Source: Hydrogenophaga aromaticivorans
GTDB taxonomy: Bacteria > Pseudomonadota > Gammaproteobacteria > Burkholderiales > Burkholderiaceae_C
Reading direction: 5' to 3'
DNA length: 64,000 bases
NCBI RefSeq assembly: GCF_013387465.1
Contig: NZ_VYGV01000028.1
Coordinates: 1-64,000, forward strand
The position numbers and the translations under genes were made by a program. Within the stretch, counting starts at the first letter, position 1. The number at the start of each line of letters is the position of its first letter. Of the stretch, positions 15,254-16,370 are shown one piece after another. A model generated the notes under the pieces. The model made no database searches. It worked only from the letters and a program-made list of their open reading frames with translations, and had not been told where the DNA came from.

Positions 15254-15281
15254 GGTCCCGCCGCCCTCAGGCGCCGGGACC
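15254..15281. terminator. possible convergent hairpin between hydrolase and ferredoxin genes
   Basis: GGTCCCG and CGGGACC form a 7-bp stem with a 14-base GC-rich loop spanning both stop codons. There is no T-run on either side, so a classical intrinsic terminator is doubtful. Confidence 0.3.
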
Positions 15282-15563
15282 GCTCAGCTCCAGGTCTTCC
15301 AGCGGATAAGCGGCGCAAGGCAGCACGCAGCCGGCCGCCTTTTCTTCGGGCAGCAGACCCGGCCATTCGATCGCGTAGCGCACACGGCCCCGCACCAGCC
15401 GGCCGATGCAGACGCGGCAGCTGCCGTTGCGGCACGAGGCGGGCCAGGCCACGCCCGCGCGCAGCAGGGTCTGCAGCAGCGTCGCGTCAACCGGTGCTGA
15501 GAAGGACTCGCCGGTGTCGGACAGGTGCAAGCGGAAGGCCGTCGGTGCAGCTGGAGCGCTCAT
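15267..15563 (-). CDS. 2Fe-2S ferredoxin-type protein
   Basis: A 98-residue stand-alone plant-type ferredoxin domain. Cluster ligands are Cys44, Cys49 and Cys52 (C-x4-C-x2-C) and Cys83. It lacks a reductase domain, so it would act as a small electron carrier for a partner encoded elsewhere. The first codon is the ATG at 15563; a longer frame to 15668 is open but has no ribosome-binding site and runs into the repeat region. Upstream lies the unusual DnaA-box-like spacer. Confidence 0.8.
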   Translation of the reverse strand: MSAPAAPTAFRLHLSDTGESFSAPVDATLLQTLLRAGVAWPASCRNGSCRVCIGRLVRGRVRYAIEWPGLLPEEKAAGCVLPCAAYPLEDLELSGPGA

Positions 15564-15899
15564 GTGCACAAATCTAACCGCAATGCCGCGCCAACGGATG
15601 GTGCAGGGCTTGTGCAGACACTGCCTTCTGAACAGGCAATCTGAAGAACTCCATTGTGAAACAAGCACTTAGCTTGCCCGTACAAGGCTTGTCCTGACTT
15701 ATGCACAAGCTTGTCCAAGATTTTGATGGACAAGTGGATAACCACCGTTGTCCGGGTGCCTGTTTGCTGGGCAGATTGAAGAAGCACCTAGGGCCACAAG
15801 CACTTGCGCACCCCGTACACGGTTGACCCTGGGTTATGCACAAACTTATCCAGTGTTTCGCTGGACAACATCGCCGGGTGGGGAAGACCAGCGCAAACC
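15564..15899. other. 336-bp spacer: imperfect 135-bp-spaced tandem duplication with DnaA-box-like sites
   Basis: A sequence at about 15630-15735 recurs at about 15765-15870, with matching bases at a constant offset of 135: CAAGCACTT, TTATGCACAA and GGACAA occur in both. Each unit also carries an inverted repeat, CTTGTCCA/TGGACAAG in unit 1 and TTATCCAG/CTGGACAA in unit 2. Two sites match the DnaA consensus TTATNCACA exactly (15699-15707 and 15834-15842), with near matches at 15733-15741 (minus strand, TTATCCACT) and 15846-15854 (TTATCCAGT). No convincing gene is present. Confidence 0.65.
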
Positions 15900-16370
15900 T
15901 CAGGCTTCGCCGCCGAAGCGCAGGATCAGGTTGTCGATGTACTTCTCGACCAGTTTTTCAAACTCGCCTTCGACGATGGGCGCCACCACCATCTTCATCA
16001 GGCCCGGCAGCGGCACCTCGATCTCGCCCTGGATGGCCAGCGTCACGCCGGTGGACTTCTTGTTGTCCACGATCTTCCAGTGGCCGCCCACCAGCGCGTT
16101 GCCCACGCCCTTGACCGGTGTCCACTTCACCGTGCCCTTGGCCTTGTCGGAAACGTATTTGCTGGCGTAGATGGTCTGGATGTTGACCTGCGCCGTGCCC
16201 ACCTTTTCCATCTCCCATTTGTAGACGCCATCACCCAGGTCGGTGAGCTGTTCGACTTTGGGAAAATGGCTGACCGAGGTCGGCACGTCCGAGAGCACGT
16301 CGAACACCTCGGCGGCCTTGGCCTTGACGTCGAATTCGTAACCCAGATCGATCTTGACGGTGATGCTCAT
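15900..16370 (-). CDS. SRPBCC-fold protein (polyketide cyclase/dehydrase-like)
   Basis: A 156-residue single-domain START/SRPBCC protein. The pattern is an amphipathic strand (ITVKIDLGYEFDV), then the helix AAEVFDVLSDVPTSV, a FPKV segment, and a long C-terminal helix FEKLVEKYIDNLI that closes the ligand cavity. Members bind hydrophobic ligands; no catalytic residue can be named. The start at 16370 follows GAGGAGACAC. It is transcribed away from ylqF across a 112-bp divergent region. Confidence 0.75.
   Translation of the reverse strand: MSITVKIDLGYEFDVKAKAAEVFDVLSDVPTSVSHFPKVEQLTDLGDGVYKWEMEKVGTAQVNIQTIYASKYVSDKAKGTVKWTPVKGVGNALVGGHWKIVDNKKSTGVTLAIQGEIEVPLPGLMKMVVAPIVEGEFEKLVEKYIDNLILRFGGEA

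Follow-up and report, generated by a model that had tools for sequence, protein, structure and literature searches.

The intergenic stretch between a 2Fe-2S ferredoxin-type (Fer2) gene and an SRPBCC/CoxG-like gene contains two tandem units placed 135 bp apart, unit 1 at positions 15622-15741 and unit 2 at positions 15757-15868 of the window (the whole 64-kb stretch of Hydrogenophaga DNA that was analysed). Each unit carries one exact TTATNCACA box, and both have the same left-to-right layout: a TGCCTGTTnAACAGGCA-type palindrome, an IHF-type 13-mer, a CGTACA step, the exact box TTATGCACA (box III), a second box (box II) 3 bp farther on and an inverted box (box I) another 5 bp past that (Table 1). 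An extra inverted box, TTATCCACT, directly behind unit 1 has no counterpart behind unit 2. The spacer (15580-15900) has a GC content of 54%, compared with 68% for the window.

An initial annotation of this DNA described a constant 135-bp offset duplication with two exact DnaA boxes, and both observations hold. Between 15580 and 15900, 89 of 186 positions are identical at this offset, the sole one among 60-259 to exceed 42% identity, and local alignment of the two halves gave a score of 112 against a maximum of 71 among 500 single-base shuffles. A repeat finder at default settings did not pick up the 135-bp duplication. No other exact TTATNCACA is present in the window. Near-matches in themselves show no enrichment there: sites with at most one mismatch number seven, against 8.4 expected. 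The inverted repeat TTGTCCA/TGGACAA that had been assigned to every unit is present in unit 1, whereas unit 2 reads TTATCCA/TGGACAA, and the range originally given (15630-15870) misses the left end of unit 1. Enrichment of TTATNCACA across the genome, proposed as a check, was not observed (28 sites versus 23 for the reversed pattern), but the sites are strongly clustered, with seven pairs at most 400 bp apart versus ~0.05 expected under a uniform model.

Table 1. Features of the two-unit element and its neighbours. Mismatches are to the DnaA-box consensus or, for IHF-type sites, to WATCAANNNNTTR; invariant positions refer to five aligned two-unit loci.
Feature	Position	Strand	Remarks
Unit 1 palindrome TGCCTTCTGAACAGGCA (consensus TGCCTGTTnAACAGGCA)	15622..15638	.	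12/17 positions invariant
Unit 1 degenerate IHF-type site AAACAAGCACTTA	15659..15671	+	1 mismatch to WATCAANNNNTTR
Unit 1 box III-equivalent, exact DnaA box TTATGCACA	15699..15707	+	9/9 invariant
Unit 1 box II-equivalent TTGTCCAAG	15711..15719	+	3 mismatches; 7/9 invariant
Unit 1 box I-equivalent, inverted, TTGTCCATC	15725..15733	-	3 mismatches; 5/9 invariant
Unit 1 extra inverted DnaA box TTATCCACT	15733..15741	-	1 mismatch; 7/8 of 15734-15741 invariant
Unit 2 palindrome TGCCTGTTTGCTGGGCA	15757..15773	.	11/17 invariant
Unit 2 IHF-type position CCACAAGCACTTG	15794..15806	+	3 mismatches, probably weak
Unit 2 box III-equivalent, exact DnaA box TTATGCACA	15834..15842	+	8/9 invariant
Unit 2 box II-equivalent TTATCCAGT	15846..15854	+	2 mismatches; 8/9 invariant
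Unit 2 box I-equivalent, inverted, TTGTCCAGC	15860..15868	-	3 mismatches; 5/9 invariant
Neighbour: 2Fe-2S ferredoxin-type gene (Fer2, Pfam)	15267..15563	-	outside element
Neighbour: SRPBCC/CoxG-like gene	15900..16370	-	outside element

The arrangement box(9)-3-box(9)-5-inverted box(9) of both window units is identical to that of the E. coli DARS1 and DARS2 cores, which are described as sharing one spacing, with box I opposite to boxes II and III (PMC5742627). Read in the same direction, DARS1 of E. coli K-12 is TAATACACA-3-TTATCCACA-5-inverted TTATCCACT, and DARS2 is TTCTTCACA-3-CTATCCACA-5-inverted TTATTCACC. DARS1, located between bioD and uvrB, is likewise a short element, although it has better boxes, other neighbour genes and a single core; a search of a 3.5-kb DARS1 stretch for TGCC-N9-GGCA found no match. 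DARS2, located between rppH and mutH, resembles the Hydrogenophaga element in its core geometry. It has accessory sites for IHF, which its activity requires, and for Fis on the side of box III, where the Hydrogenophaga element has tentative counterparts. However, different genes surround it, and our scan placed its IHF-like sites, counted from box III, at -87 and -71 and a perfect Fis consensus at -125, whereas the Hydrogenophaga element has its IHF-type register at -40 and its palindrome at -77 to -61.

The window departs from these loci in box quality. Mismatches to the E. coli consensus TTWTNCACA for boxes III/II/I are 0/3/3 in unit 1 and 0/2/3 in unit 2, as against 1/0/1 in DARS1 and 1/1/1 in DARS2, where each core box lies within one mismatch. 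The core sums of 5 and 6 in the window do not improve on what the 9-3-9-5-9 layout reaches at best in the E. coli datA region (6), and a sum of 5 is also reached by four other spacings in the window, so that the geometry could not be proved from the window by itself. Because its boxes are poor, the case rests on conservation and on other lineages in which true boxes occupy the same positions.

By BLASTN, 10 of 59 relatives have a match to the spacer (11 of 60 genomes when its own is counted), all of the same genus, which the named records identify as Hydrogenophaga. Sixteen units from 11 loci align without gaps, and unit spacing is exactly 135 bp in all five two-unit loci. Although 135 is divisible by three, no reading frame is open across all 16 units, and we rejected a coding repeat. 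A sequence model of 120 positions matched 35 of 67 genomes of the genus strongly (E < 1e-14), own included, while eight more had weak matches only; since this model was trained on 26 of 37 units after similar ones had been dropped, mostly from this genus and partly chosen via the core pattern, the 35 of 67 measures spread and not independence. The core is present in all 30 loci returned for the 35 strong-match genomes. Units number one to four per locus, and among 17 distances between neighbouring cores nine are 135 bp and the others 156 to 281 bp, plus one 379-bp step that passes over a unit detected by the model and missed by the pattern.

The same gene set flanks the core on both sides in 28 of the 30 loci, with YlqF or SRPBCC on one side and Fer2, DLH or gshA on the other; the remaining two show one side within the stretch. 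In the 24 genomes checked among the 32 without a strong match, the SRPBCC gene is present and no core (up to three mismatches) occurs within ~1.5 kb of it. The shared flanks and these SRPBCC sites without a core indicate that the element belongs to one chromosomal place and is carried by about half of the genus, so the conservation in close relatives that the initial annotation had proposed to check extends to part of them. Additional 9-3-9-5-9 arrangements with a TGCC...GGCA-like palindrome were seen by eye at other places in Hydrogenophaga (loci L117, L118, L120, L124 and L129).

Conservation within the units is concentrated in the boxes. An alignment of the five two-unit loci that made no use of a motif shows 42 invariant positions among the 54 of the boxes versus 32 among the 113 remaining (Fisher p ~1e-9), a test that is not fully independent because the box sites were defined after the units had been seen. 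The short spacers between boxes have 5 invariant positions out of 16, and the upstream part has 13 out of 57. The inverted repeats in each unit, with double changes in two of eight predicted pairs, might instead reflect a small structured RNA gene. However, the consensus fold reaches just -1.5 kcal/mol, an Rfam search up to E 5 gave no match overlapping 15564-15899, and the box geometry accounts for the spacing, which leaves an RNA gene highly improbable.

Location of the element 5′ of the Fer2 gene would also be compatible with an operator or promoter of this or another neighbouring gene, bound by DnaA or by a different regulator. Three of the five aligned two-unit loci share the start-proximal sequence TGTGCACAAATC without change, and a fourth has one change in it. 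Against this, Fer2 was detected in 17 of the 30 loci and not in the stretches of the other 13, which mostly have gshA, and it is whole units that are multiplied. Moreover, the same core elsewhere adjoins priA or genes for a HemN_C radical-SAM protein, a class II tRNA synthetase, a UPF0004/TRAM radical-SAM protein or adenosine deaminase. An operator is decidedly unlikely because the adjacent gene varies while the element stays.

The pattern used to collect further loci was written from Hydrogenophaga sequences alone, ahead of the comparison with E. coli. A contig scan with it returned 30 loci where ~0.1 would be expected (arithmetic, uniform base composition): 13 from Hydrogenophaga, ten from other betaproteobacteria, five from Pseudomonas/Pseudomonadales, one from an unplaced member of Pseudomonadota and one from Selenomonadales, the last inside a long open frame and perhaps a chance match. 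Four of the five Pseudomonas/Pseudomonadales loci (L024, L034, L035 and L053) read TTATCCACA-3-TTGTCCAC...GTGGACAA, and four of the five adjoin the same gene, adenosine deaminase (assigned by Pfam, with the family checked in one).

Spacing preference was assessed in a survey in which both gaps floated over 9 by 13 = 117 combinations, with the reversed pattern as control; the combination 3/11 corresponds to 3 and 5 bp between the 9-mers. The survey of 399 genomes from the order yielded 46 matches in 37 genomes, 31 of them at 3/11, nine at 3/12 and six at others (control 0), and among 369 genomes of the class 24 of 32 matches fell at 3/11 (reversed control 5), where the order and class counts take in the own two matches and related genomes do not count as independent. 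Other classes of the phylum contributed 19 of 25 matches at 3/11, four at 3/9 and two at 3/12, with three control matches in the whole 249-genome draw. Variants of the triad were also seen: nine genomes from one family of the order (L167-L175) have one extra base (3/12), and two other genomes of the class have paired triads 380 bp (L070/L084) and 355 bp (L080) apart. Three genomes of one genus (L160-L162) have a 2/17 arrangement that may represent oriC, since L161 contains dnaA.

These distant matches bear on which protein recognizes the element. The TTGTCC arms in Hydrogenophaga fit a DnaA box poorly, and a motif list for E. coli DnaA, as excerpted from the literature (HHMTHCWVH), excludes the G of TTGTCC. 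A protein other than DnaA might recognize TTGTCC-N11-GGACAA. However, many of the other Pseudomonadota matches carry TTATCCACA (box II) and TGTGGATAA, which are true DnaA boxes, at those very positions. Hydrogenophaga DnaA may also accept TTGTCC boxes, because TTGTCCACA is found upstream of dnaA in all four regions printed of the six tried. We consider recognition by such a different protein very unlikely, and the DnaA of this organism (50% identity to E. coli DnaA, with the domain IV stretch GGRDHTTVLHA identical) is likely to bind at the locus.

Binding could serve titration, in which the boxes merely soak up DnaA and act by copy number while the bound nucleotide stays unchanged. Clusters of one to four units with one strong box each would suit this role, and for E. 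coli a published study supports DnaA titration through dispersed boxes (PMC12371093). Nonetheless, titration does not require a fixed orientation and spacing, yet the 3- and 5-bp spacing dominates among the 117 combinations, and sequence outside the boxes (the palindrome, the GTACA step and the IHF register) is conserved as well. As the sole role titration appears rather unlikely, although it could coexist with a DARS-type function.

Tandem units are present in another genus of the same family, in one case three units at 134-138 bp and in another two at 135 bp, and all five have a perfect IHF consensus in the same register. Across 37 units this register is the sole one with a mean mismatch under 2.6, and it is perfect in ten. 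The palindromes of the window fall short of the Fis consensus GnnYAnnnnnTRnnC by two mismatches in unit 1 and one in unit 2. Of 39 cores outside Hydrogenophaga (the 3/11-spaced cores among the order and class matches listed), 16 have a perfect Fis consensus that begins exactly at -66 from box III, and no other single offset accounts for more than one core. The order and distance of the accessory IHF and Fis sites in E. coli DARS2 differ, by our scan, from those of the other-lineage cores, and the assignments of IHF and Fis sites in the window are tentative. A Fis homologue (48% identity over 71 residues) is encoded beside dusB, as in E. coli. Its presence argues against a strict reading of a published statement that limits the conservation of Fis to E. 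coli-related gammaproteobacteria (PMC4245941).

In three closed genomes the element lies 1.49-1.98 Mb from dnaA, at 0.60, 0.66 and 0.82 of the distance from dnaA to the opposite point of the chromosome, where oriC is assumed to be near dnaA. The same measure in E. coli gives 0.68 for DARS1, 0.39 for DARS2 and 0.22 for datA. The locus had been described as far from any replication gene, which holds for dnaA, this gene being on contig C25 and the window on C23. We also rejected oriC as an identity for the element: eight Hydrogenophaga dnaA loci have no such core, their best fits having at least eight mismatches, although two of them (L018 and L019) include little upstream DNA, since they begin no more than a few hundred bases from dnaA. 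Moreover, dnaA is found in two of 69 related loci (own two included), neither of them 3/11-spaced, with the reservation that oriC is not always beside dnaA.

The position of the element also bears on a function like that of datA, which speeds hydrolysis of DnaA-bound ATP together with IHF. An IHF-type register beside DnaA boxes resembles datA, whose DnaA boxes are described in excerpted accounts as acting with IHF, and the datA region contains one box-3-box step, TTGTAAACA-3-TTATCCACA. However, this region lacks a good inverted box at +5 (four mismatches), its function is opposite to that of DARS, and none of the three closed genomes places the element as near to the origin as datA; all lie closer to the value for DARS1. 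A datA-like role is accordingly quite unlikely.

Collectively, these findings favor a non-coding DnaA-binding control locus that works like E. coli DARS and is built from two tandem units, a reading to which we assign a probability of roughly 0.6. Among the three roles offered by the initial annotation (titration, reactivation or an operator), reactivation gains most, since the boxes match the E. coli DARS core in orientation and spacing, both of which are kept across relatives. Like the E. coli loci, the element is non-coding and away from dnaA and oriC. It lies neither between bioD and uvrB nor between rppH and mutH, being flanked instead by Fer2/gshA/DLH and SRPBCC/YlqF, and tblastn searches of the related loci for rppH, mutH, ygdQ, tas, bioD, uvrB, rsgA, orn and queG found none within the stretches. 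Because box quality and genomic place both differ from those of the known loci, we do not file the element as a DARS member; it is a DARS-like variant and not a proven DARS.

If the element functions as predicted, DnaA would occupy the exact box III and also boxes II and I, a weaker pair in facing orientation. Bending of the DNA by an IHF-type architectural protein would occur ~28-40 bp before box III, and the palindrome would be bound by another protein, for which the Fis homologue is a candidate. The DnaA molecules on boxes II and I would make head-to-head AAA+ contact, which could then loosen ADP, and the released apo-DnaA would take up ATP, yielding more ATP-DnaA ahead of the next initiation. 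On this evidence from sequence comparison, the Hydrogenophaga element is probably a replication-timing switch.

DARS loci have been described in E. coli and related gammaproteobacteria, including Vibrio cholerae (PMC4245941, PMC8682772, PMC6090056). PMC4585315 and PMC13220808 were consulted as well. The literature matches listed included no betaproteobacterial or Pseudomonas case, with most subscription papers outside the scope of the search. Bacillus subtilis resembles Hydrogenophaga in having DnaA-box clusters away from oriC, as a review describes, and the same review states that DARS loci are absent from that species. The wider pattern, comprising the triad spacing across Pseudomonadota and the tandem units of Comamonadaceae, is a more interesting result than the window locus itself.

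Hydrogenophaga also has a second class of core, CTATCAACA-3-TTATCCACA-5-inverted box (two to four mismatches), which was found in 11 of the 12 genomes searched. Eleven of 12 copies are located between hemE and priA, and in six genomes (three with rounded genome lengths) they lie at 0.15-0.31 of the replichore from dnaA. An IHF consensus has a fixed place on each side of these cores, perfect upstream in five of 12 copies and with one mismatch in six, and perfect downstream in ten of 12. We tentatively propose, at somewhat less than even odds, that DARS-type cores form an old dispersed class in Pseudomonadota and are not a device of E. coli relatives; that the tandem units of Comamonadaceae (one to four, often 135 bp apart) tune the dose of DnaA recharging; and that Hydrogenophaga pairs a late-replichore array with the origin-nearer hemE-priA core. 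If betaproteobacteria, Pseudomonas and other classes share the core spacing, recharging of the DnaA nucleotide could be a widespread layer of cell-cycle control. The natural range of unit number and box quality would then provide a ready series for studying effects of dose and position on initiation timing.

The genome containing the window has two cores of this second class. One (L201, C24:268941) lies between hemE and priA, and the other (L190, C24:265578) lies 3.4 kb before it, with no HemE or PriA match within 1.5 kb. A further TTATGCACA is located ~175-187 bp upstream of each. Two additional clusters of exact TTATNCACA boxes were observed in the same genome, one with three boxes within 344 bp (C26:64539-64882) and one with two boxes 382 bp apart (C25:137784-138174).
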